A stretch of 42,315 nucleotides of DNA from Alphaproteobacteria bacterium (lineage in GTDB: Bacteria; Pseudomonadota; Alphaproteobacteria; Sphingomonadales; Sphingomonadaceae), in the NCBI GenBank assembly GCA_006226465.1, contig SBHJ01000198.1:1-42315 (forward strand), written 5' to 3'. The notes under the pieces were generated by a model. That model was not told the DNA's origin and made no database searches. It saw nothing but the letters and a program-made list of their open reading frames with translations. A program made the translations under genes and the position numbers. Below, one piece after another: positions 17,614 to 36,186 of the stretch. Every line of letters begins with the position of its first letter. Within the stretch, counting starts at the first letter, position 1.

Positions 17614-18446
17614 CTTGCTGCGCCCAATTTGGGGATCAACCTTTCGAGCAGTGCCCGCAGTGGAATCGCAGCCCGCGCGCCTTCGCTCATCGTCTCTTCA
17701 TGGGTCAGCGCACCGCCCTGCATCCCCGCGCCGAGGTTGGTAATGCTGGAGATGCCAAGCACGCGCAGGCCGGCATGGCGGGCTACGATACATTCGGGCA
17801 CAGTCGACATGCCCACCGCATGCGCGCCCATACCGATCATCATGCGGATTTCCGCGGGCGTTTCGAAGTTCGGCCCCTTGACCATCAGATAGACCCCGCT
17901 GGTCAGGTCATCGACGTGTGCATCTGCGGCAGCTTTTTGCGCCAACTCGCGCAGATCGGCACTCCACGCGTCGGTCATGTCGGGAAAGCGCGGGCCAAGC
18001 CGGTCGTCATTCTCGCCAACCAGCGGATTGACGCCGGAAAAATTGATGTGATCCTCGATCAGCATAAGCCGTCCCGGGCCGACATCGGAGCGCAAGCTGC
18101 CCGCCGCATTGGTCAGGATCAAGATCTCGACACCTATCCCCGCCAGCGTTCGCACACCATAGCCCAGCTTCTCCGCTGGCTGGCCCTCATAGGCGTGAAC
18201 GCGCCCCTGCAGGCAGGCGACCTCGACCCCACCCATGGAGCCGACGATCAGTTTGCCGTGATGACCTGACACGGTTGTCGTGGGGAAGCGCGGGATGGCA
18301 GAGTATTCGATTTCCATCGCGTCGCTCAGCGACGCCGCCAGATCGTTGAGCCCGCTGCCCAGCACCAGGCCGATCCGGGGTCGCCGCTCACCCAGACGGT
18401 CCTTGAGAAAGGCTGCGCTGGCTTGGATATCGTCAAACAGGGTCAT
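17610..18446 (-). CDS. purine-nucleoside phosphorylase
   Basis: 278 aa from MTLFDDIQ; LGSGLNDLAASL, VSGHHGKL, LQGRVHAYEG, GPNFETPAEIRMM, VGMSTVPE; overlaps deoC start (ATGA). Confidence 0.92.
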   Translation of the reverse strand: MTLFDDIQASAAFLKDRLGERRPRIGLVLGSGLNDLAASLSDAMEIEYSAIPRFPTTTVSGHHGKLIVGSMGGVEVACLQGRVHAYEGQPAEKLGYGVRTLAGIGVEILILTNAAGSLRSDVGPGRLMLIEDHINFSGVNPLVGENDDRLGPRFPDMTDAWSADLRELAQKAAADAHVDDLTSGVYLMVKGPNFETPAEIRMMIGMGAHAVGMSTVPECIVARHAGLRVLGISSITNLGAGMQGGALTHEETMSEGARAAIPLRALLERLIPKLGAAR

Positions 18447-18540
18447 TGCGCTCCCTTGCCGCAGACTGCGGCATAGACGCAAGGCTGCTCGAATGCATCG
18501 GCGCAATTTCGCGAAGCTGACGGTGCTGTCGAATGTTGTT

Positions 18541-18685
18541 TGGTAGCGGAGGAGGAACATCTGATGAACATCTACCTCTTTGATTTAGGTCTCTAATTTT
18601 GGTGTCAGTCCGAAAAATACCCCCACTGATACCCCCTGAAGCAAGGCTTTGCGCCAAGTCGTTGCCGTAGCGCGATTGACCGATC
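18541..18685. repeat. att-like half site, copy 1: tRNA-3'-end-like 15-mer plus paired arm-type motifs
   Basis: TGGTAGCGGAGGAGG at 18541-18555; ATACCCCC at 18617-18624 and 18629-18636; then TTTGCG..AAGTCGTT. Co-linear and ungapped with 38363-38507. Confidence 0.7.
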
Positions 18686-19050
18686 CCGAGCGTGATGAAC
18701 TACTACGCAATTCGTGATTTCGAGCGGCAGAACTTGGGCCGGAATCAGACAGTCCGCAAATGGGTCGCGGTGTGCACCAAAAAGTCATTCCACTCGTTAT
18801 CTGCCCGCGTTTGACAGTCCGCGGCAAAACTAGATTGGTGCGGCGCACCCTGGATTCTCGTGGCAGCTGTGGTCAATCCCGCAACCGAGCTTTGTGAGGG
18901 AGGTCACGGTTATTGTCCTCGATTCTTCACATAGAAGTTGCTTGGCCGAACGGTGGTCGATGCGATGACACCAGGTAGAGAATTCACCGATTCGCTTCGG
19001 GCCTGCAGCCCAGATTGAATATCGTACTTCATAAAGAGAGTTCGGATGTG

Positions 19051-19075
19051 GGAATATTACCCACATCAATCCGTT
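19051..19075 (+). promoter_or_regulatory. ECF-type promoter candidate GGAATATTACCCACATCAATCCGTT
   Basis: GGAAT-N16-CGTT, 36 nt before the ATG at 19111; same spacing as four other elements in the island. Confidence 0.75.
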
Positions 19076-19110
19076 GTGTTTCCGACGGTTGCCGTTGGAG
19101 ATGCAATGAA

Positions 19111-20472
19111 ATGATTGAATCTGCAGACTTTCCAAGGAGTATTTCGGGAGCGCAAGCTGCGAGGCTGGGTGCCTTGATTGACGCGCATGCGGCGCGGGTC
19201 GGCGTTATCGGCCTCGGCTATGTCGGCCTGCCGCTCGCGATGGCTACCGCACGAGCAGGATTTCCTACCTCCGGCTTCGATATCGATCATGAAAAGGTCG
19301 CAGCGCTTGGCCAGGGCCAATCCTATATCGATGCCGTTCCTGCGACGTCGCTGGGCGAGGAAATTGCTGCGGGGAGATTTGGTGCGAGCGCGGACATGCG
19401 CCTGCTCGAGCGGTGCGATGTAATCGTCATTTGTGTCCCGACGCCACTGTCGCGCAATCGCGAGCCCAATCTTGCCTATGTCGAGGCAACCACGCGGCAG
19501 ATCGCTGAGACGCTGCGGCGCGGCCAGCTTGTCGTGCTTGAATCCACCACCTGGCCCGGCACCACGGAGGAGGTGGTTATTCCGATCCTCGAGGAAACTG
19601 GCCTGATCTGCGGGAAAGACTTCTTTGTCGGCTTCTCACCCGAACGCGAGGATCCGGGGAATGCAAGTTTCCACACCCGCAACATTCCAAAGGTCGTGGC
19701 GGGGCATGGCGATGATGCGCGCCAGATGGTCGAGGCCTTCTACAGCGCGGTTGTCGCCAACACTGTCGCGGTGTCGACAACCGCGACTGCCGAAGCGGTC
19801 AAGATTACCGAAAACGTTTTCCGCGCGGTCAATGTCGCCTTGGTGAATGAACTCAAGGTCATCTACGAGGCGATGGGGATCGACATCTGGGAGGTGATCG
19901 ATGCCGCCGCGACCAAGCCGTTTGGCTATATGCCCTTCTATCCGGGGCCGGGCCTCGGCGGGCACTGCATCCCGATCGATCCGTTCTACCTGACCTGGCG
20001 GGCACGCGAATTCGGAATTGCCACCCGCTTCATTGAGCTGGCTGGCGAGATCAACCATGCCATGCCCGGCTTTGTCGTGGCCCGGTTGGAAGAGGCGCTC
20101 GATCGGCATTGCGGCAAAGCGCTTAGCCGCGCACGCGTGCTCCTTGTCGGCATGGCCTACAAGAAGAACGTGTCCGACATGCGCGAAAGTCCCTCGCTCG
20201 AACTGATGGAACGGGTGACGCGACGCGGCTGCTCGGTGGACTACCACGATCCGCACGTCCCAGAAGTTCCGCCGACACGCGAATACACAGTGCTGGCCGG
20301 GCGCAGGTCGGTAAGCCTTGATCGCCTTGACGACTATGATGCGGTCCTGATCGCGACCGATCACGACACGATCGACTATGGTGCAATCGCAGACAGCGCG
20401 CGGCTGGTGGTGGATACGCGGAACGCAATGGAGCGGCGCGGGCTGGTCGTCCGCCAACTGGTCAAAGCCTGA
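19111..20472 (+). CDS. nucleotide sugar dehydrogenase (UDP-HexNAc/UDP-Glc 6-dehydrogenase family)
   Basis: VGVIGLGYVGLPLAMATARAGF Rossmann motif, ESTTWPGTTEEV, GFSPEREDPGN, GPGLGGHCIPIDPFYLTWRA catalytic Cys motif. Confidence 0.92.
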   Translation: MIESADFPRSISGAQAARLGALIDAHAARVGVIGLGYVGLPLAMATARAGFPTSGFDIDHEKVAALGQGQSYIDAVPATSLGEEIAAGRFGASADMRLLERCDVIVICVPTPLSRNREPNLAYVEATTRQIAETLRRGQLVVLESTTWPGTTEEVVIPILEETGLICGKDFFVGFSPEREDPGNASFHTRNIPKVVAGHGDDARQMVEAFYSAVVANTVAVSTTATAEAVKITENVFRAVNVALVNELKVIYEAMGIDIWEVIDAAATKPFGYMPFYPGPGLGGHCIPIDPFYLTWRAREFGIATRFIELAGEINHAMPGFVVARLEEALDRHCGKALSRARVLLVGMAYKKNVSDMRESPSLELMERVTRRGCSVDYHDPHVPEVPPTREYTVLAGRRSVSLDRLDDYDAVLIATDHDTIDYGAIADSARLVVDTRNAMERRGLVVRQLVKA

Positions 20473-20487
20473 CGCAGACCATTCCGT

Positions 20488-21924
20488 TCAGAAGTTCTTG
20501 GCAATCTTGAGCTCGGCGAGCCAGGCGCGTTCGCCGTCGAGCGTGCCGAATGCGGGCCCCGCCTCGAACACGCCGCCTGTCAATTCAAAGTCCCACCCGC
20601 TCGTCGGGCGGAAGCTTGCGATCAAATTCACCTCCTGTCCAAGTCGCGGCGAAATGCCGTCTGGCTCGATATCGAGCCGCGAACCCGAGATTTCGGGCAA
20701 TGCGGTGACCTGGTGATAACGGTGCCAAACCGCCTCCAACCAGCCGTCCTCAACCGGCTCCACACCCAATGCCGCAGTCAGCACCTTTAGGTTGCTGAGA
20801 TCGGGCCGAAGCACTTCGCCATAATAACGAAAGCGGCTGTTGCCGCGGAATTTGCCATTGTTCCCATGTAGTTCGGTCTGACGGAACGGCGTATCGCCGC
20901 CCGATCCGCGTGCGTGGCTGACAGTGAGATAGGGCTCGGCAGGGACGGGAAGTTCAAAGCTTGCGCCGATGTCGTAGGCCCAGCCGCTAACGCGCTGGCG
21001 CGGGGCACCGACAATCTGTTCGGTGCCGCTAGTTAGCTCGACAGTCTGATAGGCAATTTCATGTCCACGTACCCGTGCAATGTCGCCCCAATAGTAGATT
21101 TTGCCGGGGAATTTCGCTTTGACTCGTCCTCGAACCCGCAATCCCAGCCAGGTTGCGTCCAGCTCACTTTTATCCAGCAAATCCGGCTCGACAATCGCAC
21201 CAGGCACGTATTCCGATGACCTGTCACTCTGATCGAGCGCAAACAGCTGGATTTGCTGTCGCTCAGCCCAATCCCATTTCACGCTGCCAAGCTTGCGCAC
21301 AATGCCGCGATCTTCTGGATCGCGCCCGCCCAGCGTCGAATAATTGCCCAACTCGCGACCGATCCCGGCAAATGCGGTCACGCGGTCGCCAAAATAGTGC
21401 AGGCGAACCATGTCCAGGTCTTCATCCCACCACCATTCACGGCGGTCCTGCAATTGCTGGCGACCGACCTGCAGAGCAAAGGGCGTTCCGCCAATCCGTG
21501 TTTTCAGCAGCCAGGCTTCACCCAGTTCTACCCCGACGTCGCTGTCGTCTACCCCGCGCTGGAAATCGTCAACCTCACCCACCACCTTACCCTTGGCGAA
21601 GGCGACCAGGTCGCTGCCAAGCTCCCAAATCAGCTCGAGCTTGCCCTCTGGATTCAGAGACGTGTCGGTATCGCCGGCCTCGGTGCCAAGTGCGTAGTTG
21701 CTCTTGTATTTGACCCCAACTTCGACTTCGCCGCCGATCACCAGATCGCTTCCCAACAGCTTGACGCGGAGCTGCTCTTCGGGCCGCCGGTCGTCGTCCG
21801 ACACCCCCAGTTCGCGCGCAATTTGAGCCGCATTCATTTGGCTGGGTCTTGGTTCATCGTCTTGAGCCAGTGCCGCGGTCGAGCAAAGCAGGGAGACTGC
21901 GATGGGTATGGCTGTGCGTATCAT
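20488..21924 (-). CDS. alginate-export (AlgE-like) family outer-membrane porin
   Basis: MIRTAIPIAVSLLCSTAALAQ signal peptide; GEVEVGVKYKSNYAL; WLLKTRIGGTPFALQVGRQQLQDRREWWWDEDLDMVRLHY typical of alginate_exp proteins. Confidence 0.8.
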   Translation of the reverse strand: MIRTAIPIAVSLLCSTAALAQDDEPRPSQMNAAQIARELGVSDDDRRPEEQLRVKLLGSDLVIGGEVEVGVKYKSNYALGTEAGDTDTSLNPEGKLELIWELGSDLVAFAKGKVVGEVDDFQRGVDDSDVGVELGEAWLLKTRIGGTPFALQVGRQQLQDRREWWWDEDLDMVRLHYFGDRVTAFAGIGRELGNYSTLGGRDPEDRGIVRKLGSVKWDWAERQQIQLFALDQSDRSSEYVPGAIVEPDLLDKSELDATWLGLRVRGRVKAKFPGKIYYWGDIARVRGHEIAYQTVELTSGTEQIVGAPRQRVSGWAYDIGASFELPVPAEPYLTVSHARGSGGDTPFRQTELHGNNGKFRGNSRFRYYGEVLRPDLSNLKVLTAALGVEPVEDGWLEAVWHRYHQVTALPEISGSRLDIEPDGISPRLGQEVNLIASFRPTSGWDFELTGGVFEAGPAFGTLDGERAWLAELKIAKNF

Positions 21925-22637
21925 GGGCGTCCTTTCGCGATCCAATGGCGCATGGGACGGACCGAGATTGCCGAACTGGCAGCAATCACATCGAGCGCCC
22001 CACCGAGCTCGGCTCGGGCTGCGTCATCCATCGCTTCGTGGTGGAGCATGATCCCAATTGGCCCATCTGCTTTGGCAAATTGTTCGACCAGGCCCGCTTC
22101 AAGCCGCTCCTCGCGACGGTGTCGTTCCCAATCGAATGTCACCGGAAGTTGAGCGGTTGGCGTTTCTCTCGAACGGCGCGACCGGTCGGCAGAGAACAGG
22201 GCAAATCCGTGTTCGCCCAGGGCATCGACGAGTTCGTCAGAGCAGCGGTTCCAAGGCGGCGTGAAGATTGGATCGATTACTTCGAGCAAACTTGCCAGCC
22301 GCTCGCGCCCGGCAATAACGTCGGCAATCTGGGAAGTAGCGGGCCGCGACGGCCCAAATTCGCATTTGCGCCTCTCCTCCGGTTCATAATTGAGGTGGGC
22401 ATAACCGTGCTGGTGCAGACCGATTCCGCCATGGCATTCCCGCCGAGATGCCAGATTTCGAGCCGATACCTTGCCCAAGGCGGCAGGTATCACCGCCAGG
22501 TCGATCGGCAGACCGCGATCTTCGAACAGATCAAGCAGCGCGTGCAGTTCGGGATCGGCCCAACCGGCATCGTCGTCGCGGAAGAACACTTCTACCGGCG
22601 ATTCAAGCGCCTCGATTGTCGCCGCCAGGCCCTTCAT
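21921..22637 (-). CDS. polysaccharide deacetylase family protein
   Basis: VEVFFRDDDAGWADPELHALLDLFEDRGLPIDLAVIPAAL; HQHGYAHLNYEPEERRKCEFG; ATGA overlaps on both sides. Confidence 0.8.
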   Translation of the reverse strand: MKGLAATIEALESPVEVFFRDDDAGWADPELHALLDLFEDRGLPIDLAVIPAALGKVSARNLASRRECHGGIGLHQHGYAHLNYEPEERRKCEFGPSRPATSQIADVIAGRERLASLLEVIDPIFTPPWNRCSDELVDALGEHGFALFSADRSRRSRETPTAQLPVTFDWERHRREERLEAGLVEQFAKADGPIGIMLHHEAMDDAARAELGGALDVIAASSAISVRPMRHWIAKGRP

Positions 22638-23758
22638 GCCGCAAGCTCCGCGATAAAGGCTGCGCTGCATTGCGCACCGCGCATATCAAGAGCGCGTTTG
22701 CCGCTCGGCTCCTTCAATTCGAGTAACAATTCGGCCAGCCGCTCGCCCGACAAGCCTTGCTCGGGTGCCCAGTTTGCCAAATCCATGTTTGTGAGCTGCC
22801 GCGCCCGCGCAGTCTGTTCGCTTTCCTGCCCGCGGGAAAAAGGCACAAACAACACTGGTTTGCGCGCCTGCAATATCTCCAGCGCGCTGTTGTAGCCGCA
22901 TTGGCTCACAACCCTCCCAGCCTGCTGGAGCAAGGGCTGGAGCGATGGGACGGCACGCACCAGGGTAAGCCAAGGAGCGTCCCGCGCCTTGTCACAAATT
23001 GCCTGCCAATCCTCATCTGGAAGCAGTGGCCCGGCGACCATGACCATTGGCCAGCCGCGCTCTTCCCAGAGGATCGACTGCGCGGCGATGGCAGCTTCGT
23101 AAAGCCCGCGGCCAACCACGCCACCGCCCGCAGTAACGAGGGTCACGCCCTGCGGCACGGAGCTCTCCAACGAAATGGTGCGGGTGACGAAACCGGTGTG
23201 CTGGACTGGAATACGCAATGGGTCATTGGGCCGAAAACTTTCGGCCAGGCAGAAAATGCGCTCATCCGAATGGACCAACACCGCATCAAATGTGGCGTTG
23301 AGCTTGTCCGCCGCACGTTGGTCGTGCCGCTCCTGATCGACCCGCCCAGTCACCAGCAGGTCCCGCACGCTGCAAACGATCTTGCCGCCCTGTTCGCGGA
23401 CCCTGGCGATCAAAGGATCGATTTCCGCGGCAAACTTCTTGCGCCCGAACGGATAGAGTTCGATCAGCAAGGCTGCGACCGGGCCTTCCCCTGCAGCTGC
23501 CAACATCCGGTCACGTCGTTCGGCGATCAATTGCTCGACCGCGCCCTTGCCCGAAAGCGAACCGTCCTCCTCCATCCGTAGGGGCGGGAGATGGACGAAA
23601 CGGATCGCCCGCGGCAGGGCCACCGCCATCGGCACCGGTCCACCGTTGAAGAAAATCACCTCGAAGCGTTCGACCAGCGCTTCGGCCAGTGCCAGCGAGC
23701 GCATGAAATGGCCAAGGCCAAGCGAATGCTGGCAATAGAGGAGCAGGCGCGGCTTCAT
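22634..23758 (-). CDS. MurG/GT28-like glycosyltransferase
   Basis: RLLLYCQHSLGLGHFMRSLALAEAL N-terminus; VSQCGYNSALEILQARKPVLFVPFSRGQESEQTARA C-terminal nucleotide-sugar site. Confidence 0.82.
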   Translation of the reverse strand: MKPRLLLYCQHSLGLGHFMRSLALAEALVERFEVIFFNGGPVPMAVALPRAIRFVHLPPLRMEEDGSLSGKGAVEQLIAERRDRMLAAAGEGPVAALLIELYPFGRKKFAAEIDPLIARVREQGGKIVCSVRDLLVTGRVDQERHDQRAADKLNATFDAVLVHSDERIFCLAESFRPNDPLRIPVQHTGFVTRTISLESSVPQGVTLVTAGGGVVGRGLYEAAIAAQSILWEERGWPMVMVAGPLLPDEDWQAICDKARDAPWLTLVRAVPSLQPLLQQAGRVVSQCGYNSALEILQARKPVLFVPFSRGQESEQTARARQLTNMDLANWAPEQGLSGERLAELLLELKEPSGKRALDMRGAQCSAAFIAELAA

Positions 23759-24846
23759 ACCAGCTCCCTCGACTGCACCGCCGCCGCCTGAAGAACCTCA
23801 AGGCAGCGCTCAGCTGCATCGAGCCGGATCGAGCAGAGCAGGCGGAGCGCCTTGGCTAAATGCTTGTGCAGCTGATAGGCCTGGAACAGCCGCGGATTGA
23901 CGGGCCAATCTGCGGCAAAGCCCTCAAGATAGGCGTCCGCAATCTCTCTAGCCCGTCGATCGCCCTCGAACTCCATCTCGGCGTAGAAGGTCGCCGCATC
24001 CAGCTCGGGATCGCCCCACCCAAAGCGGTCGAAGTCGACCAGATGCAGGCCTGAATCGTTGATCAGCCATTGATGAAGGTGCGGTGCCCCGTGAATTGGA
24101 CGGTCGGCAGATCCCGGCGTTATGCTTTCCAGATTGCTTGTCAGCTCCGGCAAGTATTTGGCTGATTCCGGCAGCCGCTTGGCTATCCTCCGCGCATATT
24201 TGTGACTGCGCGCCATCTGCCAGCCATAGTCATAGCGCGCTGCAGGCCGGAGGCTGGAAGCAGCGAGCGAAGCATTGGCCACCCCCATACGCTTCGCCAG
24301 ATCGACGCCCTCCGCCCCGAAGATCACGTCCGCGATTGACCGAGCCTTGATCGCGTGCATCGCAATGATACGCTGCCCGGGAAGCCAGCCTGCGGGCCGC
24401 GCCACCCCGAAATCCAGCTCACCGCGCTTCGACGCTGCCCACAGTTGGCGGGCATCGCGGACAATTGCTTCACCACGATCATCGGCCAGAGCCTTGCAAT
24501 AGAGTTCGCGCGGCATGCCCAGCCGGAAAGTCAGCCGCTTGCCCGGGCGATAACGTACCGGGATCAAGCCCGGGCGCTTGCTGGCGATATTGCGCATTTG
24601 CGGCAGCGTTGGATCATTGCGCCAGCCATCCACCGCGCTTTCGACAAGGCGCGCCAGTTGCTGGGCCTGATCGTCACCGATTGTGAGCGCAGCAATCTCA
24701 TTCGCGCCCGAAATTCGTTCGTAAAGCAGTGTTGCATTGCCTCTGTGATCGGTCCTCCCATAGCTCCGCTGCCAGCCGATCGGATCACCCAGCAGGGTCG
24801 GTATCGGGTCCTCGTGAACCAGCAGTTCGAGCAATGACTGGCTCAT
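23755..24846 (-). CDS. APH/choline-kinase-like phosphotransferase
   Basis: IHGAPHLHQWLINDSGLHLVDFDRFGWGDPELDAATFYAEMEFEGD: aminoglycoside-phosphotransferase-like catalytic and metal motifs. Confidence 0.72.
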   Translation of the reverse strand: MSQSLLELLVHEDPIPTLLGDPIGWQRSYGRTDHRGNATLLYERISGANEIAALTIGDDQAQQLARLVESAVDGWRNDPTLPQMRNIASKRPGLIPVRYRPGKRLTFRLGMPRELYCKALADDRGEAIVRDARQLWAASKRGELDFGVARPAGWLPGQRIIAMHAIKARSIADVIFGAEGVDLAKRMGVANASLAASSLRPAARYDYGWQMARSHKYARRIAKRLPESAKYLPELTSNLESITPGSADRPIHGAPHLHQWLINDSGLHLVDFDRFGWGDPELDAATFYAEMEFEGDRRAREIADAYLEGFAADWPVNPRLFQAYQLHKHLAKALRLLCSIRLDAAERCLEVLQAAAVQSRELV

Positions 24847-26561
24847 GACTCGCCTCCTGCCATTGCTGTTTCGGTGCGGTGCGAGCTTCCGATCACCAGT
24901 TCCTGATCAACCAGCCCTTCGGGCAGCGGCTGATGTGAAATGACCAGGATGGTCCTCTCACCTTTCTCTCGATGCAGCGCGCCAAGGATGATGTCAGCCG
25001 ATCGGTGATCGACATTCGCCAGCGGCTCGTCGAGCAACAGAACCGGACGGTCCGCCAATAACGCACGTGCTAGTGAAAGCCGTGCCTGTTCGCCGCCCGA
25101 AAACCCACCGCCGCCTTCGCCCAGTGCGGCATCGAGCCCTCCGCGCAAGCGTATCAACTTGTCGAGCGCGACCGCTTCCAAAACACGCCAGCATGCGTCC
25201 TCGCGAATTTGTGCGTTACCCAGCATCAGCCAATCGCGCACCGTTCCGGCGAGCAGTGGCGGCGATTGCGGTGCGATAGCAAATTGCCGTCTCAGCGCGT
25301 CAATTTCCCAATCGTGATACGAAGTGTCGTCAAGCGAGATAGTTCCGGAAACAGGGTCAAACAGCCGGGTCAGTAGCGCGAACAGTGTGCTTTTCCCGGC
25401 GCCGCTTGGCCCGGTGACGGAGACGAATGAGCCGCAGGGGATCGCTACCTGTCCGATGGCAATTTCCCGCCCGGATTGATAGGTGAAAGACACATCATCG
25501 AGCCGGATTGATCCCCGCGCCCTGCCTTTCACGAAGTTGCCGCTACGATCGAGCATGTCAGCGCGATCGAGCAATTCCGCCAGACGCCCTGCGCGACTGG
25601 TCGCGCCGGTAACCGCAGAAGCCAGGTCGTTGATCTTCTCCAGCGGCTTCAGCATCTGGTTGAGATAGAGGACGCAGATGGCCAACCCACCTGCGCTGAT
25701 TGCGCCTTGCAAGGCCAGCGCAGCACCCACTCCGACAATCAGCGCCAGTGCCAACCCATTTGCAATCTGCATGATCCGTTCGAGTCTTACGGCAACTGTG
25801 GTCTCTTCGACTCCGGTGGCCAGCGCTGCATCGCTCGTGCTGGCAAATGCGGCCCGAATTTCACCTTCACTACCCGATGCCTGGACAAAGTCGAGCAGGC
25901 GCAAGATCTCTTGGGCGCTGGCAGCAACCTTTCCTTCCTGCCTACGCTTGGCGCGAGCAGCCCGTGACAAAGGTCGTGCAGCAACCCGCATGATCGCGGC
26001 AAGTATGATTGCAATGCCCACCCCCAATAGCCCCAGCAACGGATCGACCCAGGTCATCGCTGCCAGCGCCATCAGAAATGTCAGAAAATGACGCAGGATG
26101 GCGGGGCCGGTCTTGGCGAACAGCCGTGCAACATTCTGGCTGTCATCAACCAAACGCAATGCCAACTCCCCCTGACGATCCTCGCCGCGGCACAGCGGGG
26201 TGAGGAGCATGAACCGTTCAAGACAAGCCATGCGGATCGCGCGTGTCATTCGCTCCCGTGCGCGTGCGCTCAAGACCTTCTCAAGCGCCGAGAATAGCGC
26301 AGCTAGCGTAGCCAAAAGGGCCGCCGCCACTGCCAGAATGGTGGCAGCAGCAGGCGGCGAGGTGCCCGGCGGCAAGAATCCGGGAGTCTTGCCTGCCAGG
26401 AGCTCGTCGATCACCAGCTTCAGCGGGATCGGTGCGAGGACAGCAAAGCCGCTTGTAAGCAGAGCGGCAACAAAGATCGCGGCTGCCAATCGCGCCTGCC
26501 CCTTCGCAAATGGCCAGAATCGGCGGCACGTATCGGCAAGTGTGAAGGCGCGTTCAGTCAT
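24843..26561 (-). CDS. ABC exporter with fused TMD and NBD
   Basis: N-terminal TM domain; Walker A GPSGAGKST, signature FSGGEQARLSLARALL, Walker B PVLLLDEPLANVD. Confidence 0.92.
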   Translation of the reverse strand: MTERAFTLADTCRRFWPFAKGQARLAAAIFVAALLTSGFAVLAPIPLKLVIDELLAGKTPGFLPPGTSPPAAATILAVAAALLATLAALFSALEKVLSARARERMTRAIRMACLERFMLLTPLCRGEDRQGELALRLVDDSQNVARLFAKTGPAILRHFLTFLMALAAMTWVDPLLGLLGVGIAIILAAIMRVAARPLSRAARAKRRQEGKVAASAQEILRLLDFVQASGSEGEIRAAFASTSDAALATGVEETTVAVRLERIMQIANGLALALIVGVGAALALQGAISAGGLAICVLYLNQMLKPLEKINDLASAVTGATSRAGRLAELLDRADMLDRSGNFVKGRARGSIRLDDVSFTYQSGREIAIGQVAIPCGSFVSVTGPSGAGKSTLFALLTRLFDPVSGTISLDDTSYHDWEIDALRRQFAIAPQSPPLLAGTVRDWLMLGNAQIREDACWRVLEAVALDKLIRLRGGLDAALGEGGGGFSGGEQARLSLARALLADRPVLLLDEPLANVDHRSADIILGALHREKGERTILVISHQPLPEGLVDQELVIGSSHRTETAMAGGES

Positions 26562-27828
26562 TGGCTCCACCGATTTCTGTCAACGCGCGCATGGCGAGGC
26601 CAAGCAACTGCATCGGCATGGCCTTGCTGTTTGCCTTCAGCCTCGTTCCGCAACGATAAAGTCGCTCGGCGATGAGGCAGGCGGCGAAATTCCACAGGAA
26701 GTCGGAAGCCTCGATTGCATCTCGTGCAGTGGCCGCAAATTGCAGCTCTTCAACGATCCGCCAGATCTCGTCTGCCGACATTCCCGTCGCGAGCATCTTT
26801 TGGGCAAAGGCTGCTGCAAGGCTAGCGTGATCAAGCGCCGCTGGCGCCAATGCGCAGGTGTCGAGATCGATCAGCGCAAAGCTTTCGCCGTCCCATAGGA
26901 GATTGGCCGGATGGAGGTCGCAGTGGCTCAGCACCAGTCGCGAATCTGGTTTGGCGACCGCCAGCAATCGCGACATGACGATCGCCAGATCGGGCGAGAG
27001 GGCTGGAAATGCAGATCTTATCCTGACTGCTCGCCACTCGATTCGACCCAGCGTCGATTGGGGTGTTTGCAGTTCGATTTGGGCGGGAGGCGAGAGCCCG
27101 TGGAATGCGGCAATGGCGCTGGCGAGGCGATCGGCCCAATGCGCTGGACCGGAGCATAGATCAGCGACCGAGAGTGCATCACCTTTGACAGCCGCCTGCC
27201 ACATGATCCGGTTGGTTGCGTCATATTCAATCACCGGGGCGAGTCGAAGTCCGACCAGATCCTGTTTGATGGCCCCTATTGCGACCTTCGCTGCAGCCAA
27301 GCAGCGGTCATCGACGCGCGCCTTGCCGAATATCGCTCCCTTGGGACCATCAACCCTGATCGTGCACCCCTGCTCGGGGACATAGTGGACGACTTCTATA
27401 TCGGTCCCAAACGACTTCGCCTGCTCCAAAAGCCGCGCAATCCCTATGACCTTGCGATCATTGGGAAAGAACCAGGCCGAGCCGGACAGGGCTTCGCTTT
27501 GCAGGAGCGGCGGGCCAAAAGCAGGAGTATCTTCGCTATTCCCGTCAACGACAGACAAGTGACCCCGCTTGCCACCCGGCCAAAGCGTCAGCATCAACCG
27601 TTGATCAATCAGATTGCCGTCAATAGCTTCGCCCAGCAAACGCAGTCCCAGTAACGCCTTGCGGCCCGGCTTGAGTCGGACCCGTTCAAGCTCTGCTACC
27701 AGTCGCTTTGCCGGGAACCCCGCGCCAGCCAATTCATCACGCAAGGCGGACGCCGCGTATTCGCAGTCGAGCGCTTGGTGCAGCGAAGGAAACACCGGAT
27801 CCGTCGTGATTTGGGCGGGCATCAACAT
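26554..27828 (-). CDS. APH-like phosphotransferase (second)
   Basis: RLVLSHCDLHPANLLWDGESFALIDLDTCALAPAALDHASLAAAF catalytic motif. Confidence 0.8.
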   Translation of the reverse strand: MLMPAQITTDPVFPSLHQALDCEYAASALRDELAGAGFPAKRLVAELERVRLKPGRKALLGLRLLGEAIDGNLIDQRLMLTLWPGGKRGHLSVVDGNSEDTPAFGPPLLQSEALSGSAWFFPNDRKVIGIARLLEQAKSFGTDIEVVHYVPEQGCTIRVDGPKGAIFGKARVDDRCLAAAKVAIGAIKQDLVGLRLAPVIEYDATNRIMWQAAVKGDALSVADLCSGPAHWADRLASAIAAFHGLSPPAQIELQTPQSTLGRIEWRAVRIRSAFPALSPDLAIVMSRLLAVAKPDSRLVLSHCDLHPANLLWDGESFALIDLDTCALAPAALDHASLAAAFAQKMLATGMSADEIWRIVEELQFAATARDAIEASDFLWNFAACLIAERLYRCGTRLKANSKAMPMQLLGLAMRALTEIGGAND

Positions 27829-27830
27829 GG

Positions 27831-29507
27831 CTACCGCCCCCTCGCACCTGGCAATTCGGCCACATATGGAATGCTGAAATACTCACCATTCACCGTGAAG
27901 CCATTGGCTTCACAATTGAACTTTAATGACCTCGAAGCGAGCCCACCGGGTAAGAGCAGTGTACCGAACCAGGAAGATTGCGCGGTTTGGGCCGCTACAA
28001 TGCGCGGAGCGGCGAGTTTCATGCCGTATGTTGGCGCGACCCAGCCCTGCTCAAGTTCAATTTGCGGATTGTGGCTGCTAGCGACAATCATCGCCAAATC
28101 CGGCATTTCGATCCGGCCAAATCCACTTGTGGATTGGGGAGCCCGGACGTGATCTTGAGCCTCTGGAGCAAGCTGGAACAGCGCCTCATAGAGGTTCTCC
28201 TCCAATCCCTCGAGCCGGTCGTGAACCAGCCACCAGCCGTGGTCATGCGAGATGATCGATCGCTGGTGCACCACCGCATATTCGTGACTTGCGGCGCTTG
28301 CCTGTACGATCCGACAATGCCCTAGGTCGTGATAGGCCAGCAATTCGGCCACCGGGGCAGGCCCGTTAATCTTCATTCGCTTGGGGCCCTGGCGATAGAG
28401 CGTCTGCTCGCATCGATTGACCTGCACCAGGTTATGCGCGCGTGTGCGGCGGAATTCGGCGCGCCAATTGGTCTCGCCGCCCTCGTGATAGGTGTAGCGA
28501 CCGGGATCAACGATCAATGAGCGTCCGCAAGCAGCAAATTCGAACGAAAGGCAATCAAGGTGTCCGTGGTTACCCGCACCGATGTCGCCGCAATCAAACG
28601 CCAGATAGCCGCCATCGCGATGGCCCAATACCGCCCGCCGATCGCGCATCACTGCATAGCCGCCGGCCGGGAACAGTTCGACCAGTTTGGATGCCTTGCC
28701 CAACCCCAGCATGGCTCGATAATCGCCCGTGTCACCATCGCTCAGCGCCGGGATGTGGCCATCAGGCTTGTGCAAGACGCGGGCGAAATGGCTGGCCCGG
28801 GCAACGATCGCGCGTAGCTCCGACGGCACCGGCAGGCCATTGTCATCGGCCAGCTCGATCGCTTCGCAGAAGTTGCGCAAGGCGATGCAGTGGTAGTGCG
28901 ATGACAGTTCGATATGGACACCATCCGACAGGAAATCGCTTCGTGCGTTGGCGAGCAGCTCATCCATCGCGAAATCGGTCAATCCGGCTTCGCCGAGCCA
29001 TACCCCCGCGATGTAGATCGCGAACAGTTCGAGCGTGCGATGGTTGCGCTTGGCATGAAGATTGGCCTGCAGCCACTCTACTTGGTGACGGAGCGACGTG
29101 GCCATAGCGGCGCTCAACTTCGGTCGTGCAGTTCCCAGCAGCGAAAGCGCATAGACCCAGTTGCGTATCCGCCGCCCGGTTACATCGGCGGCAATGAAGC
29201 CGGGCGGGATCTCACCAATCCACTGTGCGATGTGAGTTTCCAGCAGGTCGAGGTGACGCGCTTCACCGGTTTGGAGCCAGCGCTGCACCAGGATTGGCGC
29301 ATGGTGGAATTTGTGGAGCACAATGTGCCATTCGAGATCGTCAGAGGGGTTCGTGACCCAGTCAATCGAATGAGTTTCGCCGCCCGTAGTGAAGTGCCCG
29401 CAGTACCACTCCTCGACTGCCTCGGCATTGTCGAATTCCGGTTCGAAACGAACGCGGATTGCCGGAATGCCTTGCGACTCAAACTGGGTTGGGCAGGCGG
29501 GCTTCAT
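27831..29507 (-). CDS. heparinase II/III family protein (polysaccharide lyase-like)
   Basis: 558 aa; FLSDGVHIELSSHYHCIALRNF, YLAFDCGDIGAGNHGHLDCLSFEFAACGRSLIVDPGRYTYHEG typical of Hepar_II_III. Confidence 0.88.
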   Translation of the reverse strand: MKPACPTQFESQGIPAIRVRFEPEFDNAEAVEEWYCGHFTTGGETHSIDWVTNPSDDLEWHIVLHKFHHAPILVQRWLQTGEARHLDLLETHIAQWIGEIPPGFIAADVTGRRIRNWVYALSLLGTARPKLSAAMATSLRHQVEWLQANLHAKRNHRTLELFAIYIAGVWLGEAGLTDFAMDELLANARSDFLSDGVHIELSSHYHCIALRNFCEAIELADDNGLPVPSELRAIVARASHFARVLHKPDGHIPALSDGDTGDYRAMLGLGKASKLVELFPAGGYAVMRDRRAVLGHRDGGYLAFDCGDIGAGNHGHLDCLSFEFAACGRSLIVDPGRYTYHEGGETNWRAEFRRTRAHNLVQVNRCEQTLYRQGPKRMKINGPAPVAELLAYHDLGHCRIVQASAASHEYAVVHQRSIISHDHGWWLVHDRLEGLEENLYEALFQLAPEAQDHVRAPQSTSGFGRIEMPDLAMIVASSHNPQIELEQGWVAPTYGMKLAAPRIVAAQTAQSSWFGTLLLPGGLASRSLKFNCEANGFTVNGEYFSIPYVAELPGARGR

Positions 29508-31888
29508 TCCGCCGCCTCTCGCCAGATGGTGCCCTCGAACAGATCATTCAGGTCATGGATCGTTTTCGAAGCATCGAATACCTCCGCGATCCGTGCGGTG
29601 GCCGCCTGGCCAAGCCGCCGCCTAAGTAGATCGTCATCGGCGAGGCGCGCCAAGGCATCGGCTAGCTCCGAGCTGTCCTCGGGGGTGACCAACAATCCGT
29701 TCACATCGTGGTCGACGATTTCCGGAATGCCTGAAACATCGGTTGAGACGACGGCAAGGCCAGTCGCCATCGCCTCGGCCAGCACATTGGGGATGCCATC
29801 GCGATCACCACTGTCGTCGATCCGGCACGGCAGTACGAAGACATCGCTGGCGTGATAGGCGCTGCGTAGCGCATCGCGCGAAAGCGGTGGCTCGATCGCG
29901 AAATGGTCGCCCAATTCAAGCGCTGCGGCCAAGGCTTCCAGGGCTTGGGTCGCAGGGCCATTTTCCCCGATCAACCGGCAGGTGAAGGCGATCTTGCGAC
30001 GCTTGAGCTCGGCCAGCGACCGCAGCAGCAGATCAAAGCCCTTCTTCTCAACGTGCCGCCCCACAGCGAGGATACGCAGCGCTTCGTGCCGCTCACGCTT
30101 GGCCGGATGGAAGAAGCTGGTGTCGAGGCCGTGGTACACCGTGTGGAGTTTGGCAGGTTCCTCGACCCGCTCAGCCATGTGCTCGTGATTGGCCGCAGTG
30201 CAGGTTGTGACGAAGCGCGCCGCATCGACCTTGCGCGAGAGTAAGTCGGCCGGATTGTGCCTTGCCTGATAGATATCCTTGGCATGCGCCGTGAAGCTGA
30301 ACGGCACACCGGCCATATCCGCTGCGAGCCAGGTAATCGTGGTCGCACTGTGGCAGAAATGGCCGTGGAGATGCGTTACTCCGGCGCGGCCAACGGCCTC
30401 GGCCACAGCACCGGCTTGCGCGAATTGCTTCAGATAGCTGCGCTTGAACCTGCGTCCATCCTGGTGGCGATATTGCCTCGCAAATCGCAGGGCGCAAAGA
30501 AGCGCCTTGCTCCATCCACGCGGATTGCGGCGCATCAACCGCCAATGCACGGGCGCGTAAGCAGGGAGCGCAACGCGCAGCCAACCAACAAGGCTGCTCT
30601 TGCTGACCGATCCCGGTGCAGGGAGGTAGGCAAGCGGCGAATTGAGGCGCGCGAGGACAGGGGCAGCGAGGTCGTCCCCGCGCGCACCAGCAAACAGCGT
30701 CAGCTGCTTGCCGAGCTGTTCGAGGCCAAGGACCTCATTGCTGATGAAGCTTTCAGAAAGTCGCGGAAAGCCTTTGACGAAGTAGCCGATATTATCGCCA
30801 CCCTCACCGGTCGCGCTGAGCAGCAGTCGGTCCAGTGCCGCAATATCCTTACCCGAGCCGAACGCATCGCGGACGAACCCTTGAGCATTCCCTGCGAGCG
30901 AAGCGCGATATTCTGGAGCCTCCAGAAGCTTGGCAATTGCGCTGGCAAGCTCAATCGGATTCTCGGGCTCGACCACCAATCCGTTGCCGCCATGGTGGAG
31001 CACCTCAGGCACCCCTGAGACATTGGTCGAGACGACCGGCACGCCGGCTGCCATCGCCTCAAGGATCGCGTTGGGAATTCCGTCGCGGTCACCATCGGGA
31101 TCAATCCGGCACGGGAGTGCGAACACGGTCGCCGCCGCCAGCCGCGCGCGGACATATTCGTGGGACTGCTTGCCTGATAAAATTACGTGATCGGCAATCC
31201 CGAGATTGGCTGCGAGCGCGCGCAATCTTGGCTCTTCGGGGCCGTAGCCGATGATTTCACACACAAACCTTCGACCGTCGTTCGCAAGCTCGGCGCAAGC
31301 ACGCAAAAGCAGGTCAAAACCCTTCTTGGTGCGGAGCCGCCCCACCGAAAGGATCAGCGGCAGATCGCACTCCTTGCGCTCGTGTTCAAGAAAGCGGTCG
31401 CAATCGATCCCGTGATAAAGCTTTGCGACCGGTACGCCGGGTGCAACGTCACGCAGATACTCCGCATTGTGGCTGGTGCAGGTGGCGATGAAACGCGCGT
31501 CGCGCATGACCCTGGCCAGTCTGCGTCGATCCGACGTGTAAATGTCCTTGGCATGGGCAGAGATGCTGAAACCGATCCCGCATTTGTGCGCCGCCTGCTG
31601 GGCGATCTCCGATGGACGGCCGGCGAAGTGCGAATGGATATGGGCAATCCCCATAGCCGCGCAGAACCGTGCAAGATCGGCTTCCGGCCTCTTCCAATTG
31701 AGCTGGATGACGGGCGCCTTGACTTTGGCCACGTCCGGATGGCGAATGGTATCGGTCGGCGGCTCAAGCGTAAAGATTGTGATTGGCCAACCCAGCTCTT
31801 CCAGGGCGAGGATTTCGCCCAGGATGAAGGTCTCCGACAGCTTGGGGAACCGCTTGACCAGGACTGCTATCTGCTTCCGCTTAGTCAC
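29504..31888 (-). CDS. tandem-duplicated GT4 glycosyltransferase (two complete domains in one chain)
   Basis: 794 aa, GTG start; paired motifs VKRFPKLSETFILGEILALE / VKGFPRLSESFISNEVLGLE, SAHAKDIY x2, VGRLRTKKGFDLLLRA / VGRHVEKKGFDLLLRS, PEVLHHGGNGLVV / PEIVDHDVNGLLV. Confidence 0.9.
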   Translation of the reverse strand: MTKRKQIAVLVKRFPKLSETFILGEILALEELGWPITIFTLEPPTDTIRHPDVAKVKAPVIQLNWKRPEADLARFCAAMGIAHIHSHFAGRPSEIAQQAAHKCGIGFSISAHAKDIYTSDRRRLARVMRDARFIATCTSHNAEYLRDVAPGVPVAKLYHGIDCDRFLEHERKECDLPLILSVGRLRTKKGFDLLLRACAELANDGRRFVCEIIGYGPEEPRLRALAANLGIADHVILSGKQSHEYVRARLAAATVFALPCRIDPDGDRDGIPNAILEAMAAGVPVVSTNVSGVPEVLHHGGNGLVVEPENPIELASAIAKLLEAPEYRASLAGNAQGFVRDAFGSGKDIAALDRLLLSATGEGGDNIGYFVKGFPRLSESFISNEVLGLEQLGKQLTLFAGARGDDLAAPVLARLNSPLAYLPAPGSVSKSSLVGWLRVALPAYAPVHWRLMRRNPRGWSKALLCALRFARQYRHQDGRRFKRSYLKQFAQAGAVAEAVGRAGVTHLHGHFCHSATTITWLAADMAGVPFSFTAHAKDIYQARHNPADLLSRKVDAARFVTTCTAANHEHMAERVEEPAKLHTVYHGLDTSFFHPAKRERHEALRILAVGRHVEKKGFDLLLRSLAELKRRKIAFTCRLIGENGPATQALEALAAALELGDHFAIEPPLSRDALRSAYHASDVFVLPCRIDDSGDRDGIPNVLAEAMATGLAVVSTDVSGIPEIVDHDVNGLLVTPEDSSELADALARLADDDLLRRRLGQAATARIAEVFDASKTIHDLNDLFEGTIWREAAE

Positions 31889-33084
31889 AGCACCTGCTCC
31901 AGCCGCTGGGCGACTTCCTGAGCGCGCTTGCCGAGAGCCAGCTCACAGATCCGTTCGAGCCCATTGAACTTGAGGCGTGCGGCGTGGCTCGAATGGATGT
32001 TCGAACGATCGAGCTCGATCTGGATCGATTGCCGCAGGACTGCAGGCGACAGGTCCTCCATCGGAATCATCGAGAGTAGGCCCAGGCGCGACATGCCTTC
32101 GGCTCGGATGCGTTGTTCGCGCACTGGTTCGGACCGCGGCACCACTATGGCTCGCTTGCGATAGCTCAGAATCTCGCAAACAGTATTGTAACCGCCCATC
32201 GAGACAACAACGTCTGCGGCAGTCAGTTCCGCGCCCATATTGTCAGAGAAATCGAGCCACTCGGTATCAGCGATCTGGGCTGCAGCGACCGATAGGCGAC
32301 GCCGCTCGACTTCGGCCATCTCCGGCCCGCCAATAACTCTGCACTCATAGTCACGCTCTGCACCGGCCTGAACCAGCGCACCCAGGGCAGCCTCGATCAG
32401 CGCAACGCCGTCCTGTCCCCCGCCCGCATGGACCAGCACCCGCATCTTGCCATCCACATTGGCTGGGCGCTTGGTATGCCCTGCCTCGGCGCGATTGATA
32501 TATCCGCAATAGTGCAGCTTGCAGCGTGTGCTGTCAGGGAAACGATAGGCTTCGGCGAGGTCGAATATCTGTGGCTCGCCCACTACCAGGATGGAATCAT
32601 AGCAGCGATCAATTACGCCGTGATAGTCGTTGGCTTCCCATACACTGCGGGTTGCCTGTGGCGTGTCGAGGATGTCGCGCAGCAGCAGGTGCATCCGAGG
32701 CCGGTCGGCGCGGCGTGTCATCAATTCCAACATGGGCGCAAGTTCGCCGGCCACACCCAGCGGCTTCTTGTCCACCAGCACAATGTCCGGATTGAATTCG
32801 CTGGCAGCAGCCATGATCACGCTCGCGCGCATACGCACCGCGTCGCCGAAATCCATGTCGAGGTGCTTGACCCCATACTCACCCTTGGTGTCGCGGGCGA
32901 GGCACGGCAGCTTCACATAGTCAATCCGTTCAGCCAGCCGGAATGCATGCAGCATGGGTGATCCGGTGACCAAAAGCACCGAGCTCGCCGGGTCATGCGC
33001 CACGAGCGCTTCAGAAATTCGCAGCATCCGGCGGATATTTCCGAGCCCGAATGTGTCATGCGAATAGACGAGGATGCGTGCCAT
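31885..33084 (-). CDS. MurG/GT28-like glycosyltransferase, first gene of the polysaccharide operon
   Basis: RILVYSHDTFGLGNIRRMLRISEALV; VVSMGGYNTVCEILSYRKRAIVVPRSEPVREQRIRA. Confidence 0.85.
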   Translation of the reverse strand: MARILVYSHDTFGLGNIRRMLRISEALVAHDPASSVLLVTGSPMLHAFRLAERIDYVKLPCLARDTKGEYGVKHLDMDFGDAVRMRASVIMAAASEFNPDIVLVDKKPLGVAGELAPMLELMTRRADRPRMHLLLRDILDTPQATRSVWEANDYHGVIDRCYDSILVVGEPQIFDLAEAYRFPDSTRCKLHYCGYINRAEAGHTKRPANVDGKMRVLVHAGGGQDGVALIEAALGALVQAGAERDYECRVIGGPEMAEVERRRLSVAAAQIADTEWLDFSDNMGAELTAADVVVSMGGYNTVCEILSYRKRAIVVPRSEPVREQRIRAEGMSRLGLLSMIPMEDLSPAVLRQSIQIELDRSNIHSSHAARLKFNGLERICELALGKRAQEVAQRLEQVL

Positions 33085-33255: not shown

Positions 33256-34236
33256 TCAGAAGCGCGCGGTAATCGTCGCACCGCCGAACAGATCGGCGCT
33301 GTTGTCGTTGAGTCCGGTCCCCAGATAGGTCGTAAGGCTCAGCGTGCGGCTGATCCGGAAGTTGGCCCATCCGGTCACCTCGCTGCTCGCCCGACGGCCG
33401 TCAAAGGCGGACTGCTGCCAATCGTAATCAGCTCCGATATACACGCCCGTGCCCATCCGGCCGCTGATCCCGCCACTTGCACCCCAGGTCGAACGGATCG
33501 TCGAGCCTTCAGGCTTGCCGGCGAACTTGCGCCTGCCGCTGACGTAAAGCGACGCATTGCCAATGTCTTGGATCAGAGCGGCGGAGGCTGTCACATCGAC
33601 TTCGCCCGTGCCCAAGCGTTTGCTACGCGAAGCGGTCGGCAGCTTCACTTTCACGCCCGGTTCGAAGTATGTCGATCCGCCCAGCGCAAATGAATAACTC
33701 ATCGAGACATTGACGTCGCCGAAACCGTTGCGCCGATTGTCTGGTAGGCCAACACCGCTATCGTCCACCACATCGCCCAGTACCGGATCTTCAACTTCCA
33801 CCTCGCTACCGCCACTGGAGCCTGAGCTACCTGAGCCGGAATTGGAGCCGGAACTACCCGATCCGGAGTTTGACCCTGAACTGCCGGAACCGGAATTCGA
33901 GGAATCTTCACCCGAACCACTTCCACCGCCCGAAAAATCGCGCCCTTCGGGTGTTGAGAGCAGCGAGCCTGGGCCGTCGATCCAGACGTAGGGCACTGAA
34001 ACGCGGATCTTCAGGCCATCCTTCTTGTAGGTAAGGCTCATCGGGATAGCGACGACCTTTGTGTCTTCCAATTCACCGTATTCGCCACTTGAGAACGTCA
34101 CCCCTGTGCTCAGGCGAAAATTACTTGGCATGACCTGTTGTCGGTCTTTTTCGGAATCCTGCGCCCATGCGGGCACCGATATGCAGGCCATACCCCCTGC
34201 AGTGATTGCGAGCAGGACTTTCCCATTGATTTTCAT
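33256..34236 (-). CDS. outer-membrane beta-barrel protein with Ser/Gly linker insertion (Phenol_MetA_deg-like barrel)
   Basis: Signal peptide AITAGGMACISVPAWAQ; SGSGSSGSNSGSGSSGSNSGSGSSG linker; NGFGDVNVSMSYSF...GVKVKLPTAS; terminal ATITARF. Confidence 0.75.
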   Translation of the reverse strand: MKINGKVLLAITAGGMACISVPAWAQDSEKDRQQVMPSNFRLSTGVTFSSGEYGELEDTKVVAIPMSLTYKKDGLKIRVSVPYVWIDGPGSLLSTPEGRDFSGGGSGSGEDSSNSGSGSSGSNSGSGSSGSNSGSGSSGSSGGSEVEVEDPVLGDVVDDSGVGLPDNRRNGFGDVNVSMSYSFALGGSTYFEPGVKVKLPTASRSKRLGTGEVDVTASAALIQDIGNASLYVSGRRKFAGKPEGSTIRSTWGASGGISGRMGTGVYIGADYDWQQSAFDGRRASSEVTGWANFRISRTLSLTTYLGTGLNDNSADLFGGATITARF

Positions 34237-34770: not shown

Positions 34771-34795
34771 AACGAAGTTGATCGGCGCTTATTCC
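34771..34795 (-). promoter_or_regulatory. ECF-type promoter candidate GGAATAAGCGCCGATCAACTTCGTT
   Basis: GGAAT-N16-CGTT, 42 nt upstream of the DR-repeat gene start; shares GGAATAAGC with the element at 33130-33154. Confidence 0.72.
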
Positions 34796-35556
34796 ACTGC
34801 GCTAAGATTATTTTTGCTTGGACTCCAGTCCTGCTGAATCAGCCGGGCTTCCCGCTTTGCGTCGAATGGGTCGCTAGCGCCGAGCCGATCGTAAACCGCA
34901 TCAAGGGTGGCGTCCTCGACGCCGGATGCCAAGGCAATCTCATTTGGATCGGCGAGTTCGGTTGCTCCACGTTCCAATGCCTCGACCTGCCATGATCCGC
35001 TGCGCCGGCATGCGATGCCTGCTCCACCGGCAGCTGCTTCACGCGCAATCGAGAATTCGCGACAGTAGCTGCCGTCGCTCGCAACAAAGGTGAGTAGCGG
35101 CGTTAGCCGCGACCCATTGTCCATAGCTGCAAACTGCCCTGATGGCGTATTTTCCAACGCACGGTCGAACGAATTCCCGCCCGGCCCAATGAACAATATG
35201 GCCAATGTGAGCGAGGCTGCGATCGCCCCGCCGACAGGCAGCGCCCAACGCGTACGGAACGGCGGATTGTCGTTGGCCACCCGGGCCGATCGTCGGTGCG
35301 CATCAAGATCGACCGGCTTCTCGACCTTGTCCGGCAGCAGGCCCATCCGAGCCAACAGCGCGTCATCGGCCACTACCTGCATTGGCGCGCCGAATGCCTC
35401 GCGTAGCAGCGTATCATTCGCCATCAGGCGTTCGAGCTCTCCTGCCAGCTCACTATCGGTTTCGAGTTCAGCTTCGAATGCGGCCAGCTCCGATCCTTCG
35501 AGCGCACCGTCGATGAATGCCGCAATACGTTCGTCCCTAGTCAGGTTTCCGGTCAT
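34789..35556 (-). CDS. membrane-anchored anti-sigma factor
   Basis: RDERIAAFIDGALEGSELAAFEAELETDSELAGELERL N-terminal domain, single TM (WALPVGGAIAASLTLAILFI), 4-nt overlap with the sigma gene. Confidence 0.8.
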   Translation of the reverse strand: MTGNLTRDERIAAFIDGALEGSELAAFEAELETDSELAGELERLMANDTLLREAFGAPMQVVADDALLARMGLLPDKVEKPVDLDAHRRSARVANDNPPFRTRWALPVGGAIAASLTLAILFIGPGGNSFDRALENTPSGQFAAMDNGSRLTPLLTFVASDGSYCREFSIAREAAAGGAGIACRRSGSWQVEALERGATELADPNEIALASGVEDATLDAVYDRLGASDPFDAKREARLIQQDWSPSKNNLSAVE

Positions 35557-36074
35557 TGCACCGTCTCCCCATTTACAGCCTTATCAATGGCGCGACGCGC
35601 GCGGGCTATGCGGCTCATGACCGTTCCAATCGGAATATCGAGTGTGGTCGCTGCATCCCTGTAGCTCATGCCATCCAGCACCACGAGCGCCATCAGCACG
35701 CGTTGCTCTTCGGGCAAAGCCGCCATAGCGGTCTGTGCCCGTTCAAGGTCGGAGCGTCCTTCGACCAATTGCAGCCCGTCTTCGCCGCGCAGGCCATAGG
35801 CCTCGTCCACGTCAATCTCGACCCCGCGCGTCTGCAGGCGCCTGGCCTGGTCGATGTGTATATTCTGGGCGATACGATACATCCAACTGTCCAATCTCGT
35901 TCCTGTTTGGAACTGCTCGGAACGTGATAGTGCACGTTCGATCGCTGCCTGGCACAGATCGTCACCCTTGTCCGCATCCCGCGCCAACGCCATGCAGAAA
36001 CGGCGCAATCGGGGAAGGAGGGCAACGATCTGCTCGCGCAAGTCGGTCGTATCCGGCCGGCTATCTCGTTCCAT
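35553..36074 (-). CDS. ECF-family RNA polymerase sigma factor
   Basis: LRRFCMALARDADKGDDLCQAAIERAL (region 2), DSWMYRIAQNIHIDQARR, LPEEQRVLMALVVLDGMSYRDAATTLDIPIGTVMSRIARARRAI (region 4). Confidence 0.9.
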   Translation of the reverse strand: MERDSRPDTTDLREQIVALLPRLRRFCMALARDADKGDDLCQAAIERALSRSEQFQTGTRLDSWMYRIAQNIHIDQARRLQTRGVEIDVDEAYGLRGEDGLQLVEGRSDLERAQTAMAALPEEQRVLMALVVLDGMSYRDAATTLDIPIGTVMSRIARARRAIDKAVNGETVQ

Positions 36075-36087
36075 TCCACTCCCCACA

Positions 36088-36112
36088 AACGGATCGAAGA
36101 GCCGGTTATTCC
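36088..36112 (-). promoter_or_regulatory. ECF-type promoter candidate GGAATAACCGGCTCTTCGATCCGTT (autoregulation)
   Basis: GGAAT-N16-CGTT upstream of the sigma gene. Only 13 nt separate CGTT from the ATG, so the message may be near-leaderless or the start mis-assigned. Confidence 0.65.
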
Positions 36113-36161
36113 CGCCGGGGCGCAATAATTCAATGGGTCTGCCGAATTCCTCGGCGGAAAT

Positions 36162-36186
36162 GGAATATTGCAATTGTTTGTGCGTT
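36162..36186 (+). promoter_or_regulatory. ECF-type promoter candidate GGAATATTGCAATTGTTTGTGCGTT
   Basis: GGAAT-N16-CGTT, 37 nt upstream of the S8 protease start, divergent from the sigma gene. Confidence 0.75.

Follow-up and report, generated by a model that had tools for sequence, protein, structure and literature searches.

A conserved gene cluster pairing an MsbA-type ABC exporter with an AlgE-family barrel and APH-fold kinases, predicted to produce an acidic extracellular glycan

A compact operon of nine genes from an alphaproteobacterium of the Sphingomonadaceae probably directs production of an acidic, partly de-N-acetylated extracellular glycan, which would be assembled in the cytoplasm, carried over the inner membrane by an ABC exporter, and released through an AlgE-type barrel. 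Our confidence is higher that this is a polysaccharide locus, and lower in the exact route, than in this reading as a whole. The same set of ten proteins (the fused GT4 enzyme of this operon counting as two) recurs in near-fixed order in ~30 loci across several phyla. The component families are known; their combination is without a published description in the open-access literature searched. The operon lies in a window of 42,315 nucleotides (contig SBHJ01000198.1), which comes from an assembly that is 67.8% complete.

The nine genes are tightly packed on the minus strand, running from 33084 to 20488 by ORF coordinates (Table 1). An earlier note on this DNA, made from the sequence alone, had given the same extent and strand, and had counted eight genes. 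Its description of the junctions as mostly ATGA/GTGA overlaps holds for five of the eight, which are exact 4-bp overlaps if the porin is counted from the ATG at 21924 (the start adopted here; the ORF list begins at a TTG, 21945); the other three are a 2-bp gap, a 17-bp overlap, and a 37-bp overlap. The dehydrogenase gene UGD converges on the end of the operon, with 16 bp between. Pfam and PDB searches back the family calls of that note for the two GT28 proteins, the GT4-GT4 fusion, the heparinase, both APH proteins, the ABC protein, and the porin (Alginate_exp), and its deacetylase call is carried by orthologues and conserved NodB-like motifs. A PHROGs search gave no match, and promoter and terminator scans gave fewer sites than in shuffled sequence.

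Table 1. Genes of the operon and its surroundings, with positions in the window.
Feature	Coordinates	Strand	Basis or remark
GT28a, MurG-like glycosyltransferase, operon gene 1	31885..33084	-	PF04101; PDB relatives MurG only
GT4a-GT4b, fused double GT4 glycosyltransferase	29504..31888	-	two GT4 domains (Pfam/PDB); both D-x7-E motifs
PL12/heparinase-III-like lyase	27831..29507	-	heparinase II/III (Pfam/PDB); Asn155, Tyr205, His314/His316
APH1, APH-fold kinase with extra N-terminal domain	26554..27828	-	APH (Pfam/PDB); catalytic residues
ABC, MsbA/Sav1866-type half-transporter (TMD-NBD)	24843..26570	-	Pfam/PDB
APH2, second APH-fold kinase-like protein, probable pseudokinase	23755..24846	-	APH; HGAPHLHQ
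GT28b, second MurG-like glycosyltransferase	22634..23758	-	GT28_C
PDA, NodB/DUF2334-like carbohydrate deacetylase	21921..22670	-	orthologues and NodB-like motifs
PORIN, AlgE-family outer-membrane barrel with signal peptide	20488..21924	-	PF13372; sole PDB relative AlgE
UGD, nucleotide-sugar dehydrogenase, UDP-N-acetylhexosamine subclass	19015..20472	+	GGHCIPIDP motif
BB, Gly/Ser-rich outer-membrane-like protein, upstream of operon	33256..34236	-	homologues beside two other loci
Putative anti-sigma factor, candidate regulator	34789..35556	-	very weak zf-HC2; inferred from position by sigma factor
ECF-type sigma factor, candidate regulator	35553..36173	-	
Subtilase (S8)	36224..37711	+	homologues beside five other loci

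An alignment of GT28a used as seed yielded 80 related loci, onto which all window proteins were mapped; a search that took just the heparinase protein as seed gave no loci. By profile annotation of 33 loci, the usual order is GT28a, GT4a, GT4b, lyase, APH1, APH2, ABC, GT28b, deacetylase, porin. The ABC gene sits between APH1 and APH2 in the window, in Hyphomonadaceae, and in the Woeseiaceae locus. Among the 30 loci that carry the lyase, a kinase and a deacetylase are present in every one, the ABC protein in 29, and the porin in 28. Thus the neighborhood search proposed in the earlier note, for APH kinase, ABC exporter, GT4 enzymes, and heparinase together, finds them co-occurring in ~30 loci. 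Carriers of the cluster are Hyphomonadaceae, many Betaproteobacteria, Gammaproteobacteria such as Methylomonas, Nitrospirota, Acidobacteria, and one Woeseiaceae bacterium. Hyphomonadaceae loci are identical to the window in order and in the GT4 fusion (with the dehydrogenase adjoining GT28a in L015 and L016), and GT4a and GT4b are separate genes in Betaproteobacteria and Nitrospirota. Relatives in cyanobacteria and Bryobacterales/Acidobacteria have a reduced GT28-GT4-ABC core, without lyase or kinases.

A plasmid search with APH1 matched only plasmids of Candidatus Manganitrophus, on which each gene of the cluster has an orthologue; there GT28b is fused to the deacetylase and GT4a is a gene of its own. 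APH1 is absent from the 36 other sampled genomes of the window's genus. Sampling at higher ranks showed it in one of 301 genomes for the order (the window genome alone), in 2 of 386 for the class, and in 3 of 399 for the phylum. This sporadic distribution, along with plasmid carriage in Nitrospirota, suggests that the locus has spread horizontally. As GC content stays flat at about 0.60 throughout the operon, with no compositional sign of recent import, the argument for transfer is one of distribution alone. The earlier note had allowed that the cluster might prove to be an already characterized pathway; we found no description of it in the open-access literature, including that on Manganitrophus, Methylomonas LW13, sheath formers, and S. 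meliloti. Passages of the paper on LW13 polysaccharide bands name genes other than those of the cluster (PMC11072679).

Both GT28 proteins have a GT28_C domain supported by Pfam and PDB searches. The lyase profile has PL12 heparinase III as its best match, and the motifs around Asn155, Tyr205, and His314/316, which we take to be equivalent to the published PL12 catalytic residues, align with HepIII entries and are kept in 33 homologues. Known PL12 heparinase III lyases have a secretion signal, whereas the window lyase has no hydrophobic N-terminus; a hydropathy scan showed no signal peptide in this protein or in most of 15 homologues, and the two homologues with the highest hydropathy (L070, 1.84; L032, 1.42) also have no typical signal peptide. 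In Methylomonas and Nitrospirota loci (L021, L023–L025, L074, and L089) the heparinase-like gene is present as a tandem pair whose two copies are divergent. The window deacetylase itself scores under the Pfam cut-off and as sole query has no PDB relative; its orthologue in L094 matches DUF2334 and Polysacc_deac_1. The deacetylase motifs DD, H-x3-H, TPPW, and LHH are kept in nearly all homologues, with the first histidine replaced by asparagine in both Manganitrophus copies. No signal peptide was seen in the deacetylase.

The dehydrogenase had been put forward as the source of a uronate. A nucleotide-sugar dehydrogenase does converge on the operon, but it is of the UDP-HexNAc type and not of the UDP-glucose/glucuronate type. 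Because it is closest to UDP-ManNAc/Cap5O-type enzymes and has the motif GGHCIPIDP, its product is likely to be an aminouronate rather than glucuronate. Such a dehydrogenase gene lies beside ten loci (the window and nine others), often right after the porin and on the same strand. Seven of these neighboring enzymes, from six loci, divide into four nearest UDP-glucose dehydrogenase and three nearest UDP-HexNAc dehydrogenases, with L142 carrying one of each. Four loci also have an epimerase that resembles UDP-glucuronate 4-epimerases (the 4-epimerase reading was made by eye). The presence of differing dehydrogenase types beside one core supports a polymer that would be acidic and whose uronate would vary between loci, and the two subfamilies found adjoining nine further loci strengthen the acidic-polymer idea of the earlier note.

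The two kinases are numbered by position, since the APH1 profile picks up APH2 as well. In APH1, the catalytic residues H302-D304...N309...D321-D323 are invariant in 19 sequences. In APH2 of the window the catalytic aspartate is replaced (motif HGAPHLHQ), making this protein a probable pseudokinase judging from its motif; the aspartate is likewise lost in Hyphomonadaceae and Woeseiaceae, and the asparagine has become glutamine in all 14 sequences compared. AlphaFold models of the kinases (pLDDT 88 and 87) have maltokinase as their top PDB match, and glucosamine kinase is also among the structural matches of APH2. These mycobacterial APH-fold enzymes are the closest solved folds to both operon kinases, which share low sequence identity with them and which differ further in the missing catalytic aspartate of the window APH2. 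As the TM-scores are modest, we read the modeled folds as a hint of sugar-kinase ancestry and not as a substrate assignment. APH-fold proteins are broad in function. Two variant loci, L094 (9107–10660; complete genome G161) and L074 (16783–18441; Nitrospirota), have an extra gene in which an APH kinase is fused to an N-terminal nucleotidyltransferase-like segment, recognized by eye from the motif GAFRPPHAAH (Pfam detects APH only) and hinting at an NDP-activated substituent in these loci. Genes of the histidine phosphatase family occur inside the Manganitrophus, Methylomonas, and cyanobacterial versions of the cluster (L007:27266–27901, L021:18057–18725, and L075:17103–18266).

The ABC protein is a single polypeptide (ABC_membrane and ABC_tran) with MsbA and Sav1866 as relatives, and its Walker A and B, signature, and H-loop residues are intact and conserved. 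MsbA-type exporters move lipid-linked substrates or short glycans, and MurG-like glycosyltransferases classically use lipid-linked acceptors. Because of this property of MsbA-type exporters, there is room for a reading in which the ABC protein, being of the MsbA/PglK type, acts as a PglK-like flippase for a lipid-linked repeat unit, and a distant polymerase and initiating enzyme finish a Wzy-like pathway, the locus taking the place of Wzx and Wza. Families of the initiating transferase (PGT), Wzy, Wza, and Wzx have no match on the window contig, as the earlier note had reported for the window. They are widely present elsewhere in the genomes: among 28 genomes, including that of the window, 26 carry a PGT, 27 Wzy, 28 an outer-membrane polysaccharide export protein (OPX), and 27 Wzx. 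However, none of PF02397, PF04932, PF01943, and PF02563 has a match within ~45 kb of the locus in any of the 28, and no OPX (PF02563) lies within ~60 kb, in contrast to the strict linkage of the ten genes with one another; these distances are taken from listed coordinates, with fragmented contigs limiting the test. The nearest canonical case is a Wzy-type locus ~48 kb from the cluster in G478. In these genomes the canonical genes thus lie elsewhere, and neighboring loci do not supply them in the way that would have spoken against the earlier note. Moreover, the Woeseiaceae genome G484, a MAG that may be incomplete, has the cluster and neither a PGT nor a Wzy match. We regard the lipid-linked reading as unlikely.

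The porin scores 92 bits against PF13372 (cut-off 25.2), and in the PDB its profile finds AlgE alone (E 1.4e-24). PF13372 barrels are broad in function. A profile for AlgE-like proteins, made from the window sequence and two plasmid sequences, gives one match per genome, on the same contig and at the cluster, in 27 of 30 genomes, with coordinates usually just past the last gene of the retrieved stretch; the other three have no match. No other single observation argues as strongly for the barrel being part of the system as this linkage. The linkage also speaks against the product being an envelope-bound glycan or glycolipid, of the lipo-oligosaccharide or periplasmic glucan type, with a porin that serves another purpose. 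That reading draws on matches of the ABC protein to the exporter models of ChvA (cyclic glucan) and heterocyst HepA, both below their cut-offs, and on the cyanobacterial and Acidobacteria relatives that retain the core without lyase or kinases, and we think it quite improbable. Lyase, porin, and kinase families are also known from catabolic loci, but an operon for degrading uronate-containing glycans by means of a lyase, an uptake porin, and sugar kinases is very improbable and was rejected on gene content: the locus encodes four glycosyltransferase domains, a biosynthetic UDP-sugar dehydrogenase, and an ABC protein of the exporter type, its lyase has no signal peptide, and no enzymes of unsaturated-uronate catabolism were seen in the window.

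The defining features of the Wzy, synthase, and Wzm/Wzt schemes are each missing at the locus, in agreement with the mismatch noted earlier. The Wzx/Wzy pathway encodes its initiating PGT, Wzx, Wzy, and OPX together with the glycosyltransferases, and the operon has none of these nearby. Like the operon, Wzm/Wzt and KpsMT systems combine a cytoplasmic glycosyltransferase set with ABC export over the inner membrane, and multidomain GT4 enzymes such as WbdA occur in these pathways. They use an ABC-2 permease and a separate ATPase, however, whereas the operon exporter is a fused TMD-NBD protein of the ABCB/MsbA type, no OPX is near the operon, and its outer-membrane part is AlgE-like. For a GT2-type membrane synthase with a c-di-GMP-linked co-polymerase, no Pfam domain was found among the operon proteins; the neighbors of other loci were covered by inspection. 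The Pseudomonas alginate system shares with the locus an AlgE-family barrel, a lyase, and a uronate-supplying dehydrogenase; the operon differs in having no recognized Alg8/Alg44 synthase, a PL12-like lyase without signal peptide, and an ABC exporter. An AlgE-like barrel outside the synthase pathway has a precedent in EpsX/EpsY, an OPX/β-barrel composite translocon (PMC9601211), though the locus has no OPX partner within ~60 kb. Nothing in the cluster was recognized as a periplasmic bridging protein of the AlgK or PCP type. Rhizobial and Azospirillum replicons (L151 on S. meliloti pSymB, L152, and L153) share the GT28a, GT4, ABC exporter, and deacetylase genes, and the S. meliloti and Shinella loci also have the dehydrogenase. 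These stretches differ from the operon in that nothing in them matched the heparinase, the APH proteins, or the AlgE-like porin, and in having additional importer-type ABC genes and cyclic-nucleotide-binding proteins; no function for them was found in the open-access literature.

For the secreted acidic glycan that we consider probable, we infer from the proteins encoded what the product is, which way it is transported, its chemistry, and what each tailoring enzyme does. The two GT28 enzymes and both GT4 domains would use nucleotide sugars to build the chain, and one of these donors is probably a UDP-N-acetylhexosaminuronate made by the adjacent UGD. The GT4-GT4 fusion and the lack of a linked Wzy favor polymerization in the cytoplasm. 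There the NodB-like protein would strip acetyl groups and the PL12-like lyase would trim or clear chains. APH1 may phosphorylate a sugar or the glycan, and APH2, catalytically impaired, perhaps holds or regulates APH1. The ABC protein, as a homodimeric MsbA-type exporter, would then carry the product over the inner membrane. Its release through the outer membrane would fall to the AlgE-family barrel. More tentatively, the cluster may represent a distinct Gram-negative secretion route, sporadically distributed through horizontal transfer, that combines cytoplasmic polymerization, MsbA-type export, and AlgE-family release, and in which the kinase/pseudokinase pair might govern chain synthesis or export.

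Subtilase homologues adjoin the cluster in Methylomonas (L127–L129) and in L130 and L139, suggesting that the ECF sigma factor, putative anti-sigma factor, and subtilase genes of the window (34789–37711) are a shared regulatory module. Beyond the dehydrogenase, positions 13059–18560 encode an adenosine deaminase, a double aldehyde dehydrogenase (842 amino acids, two Aldedh stretches), a DeoC-like aldolase, and a nucleoside phosphorylase, likely a nucleoside catabolic block. What appears to be a complete efflux system of the YbhFSR type lies at positions 6192–13185, with genes for a TetR/CecR regulator, HlyD, a double-ABC ATPase, two ABC-2 permeases, and an OEP protein.

Polysaccharide export in Gram-negative bacteria is usually divided into Wzy, Wzm/Wzt, and synthase classes, with the OPX/barrel composite a recent addition. 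A conserved locus in which an MsbA-type exporter stands together with an AlgE-family barrel, and which has kinases as well, would widen this scheme. In methanotrophs, Betaproteobacteria, and Candidatus Manganitrophus, it would also provide the genetic signature of an unassigned exopolysaccharide. Cultured strains of Methylomonas, Aromatoleum, and Rubrivivax make the locus open to direct study.
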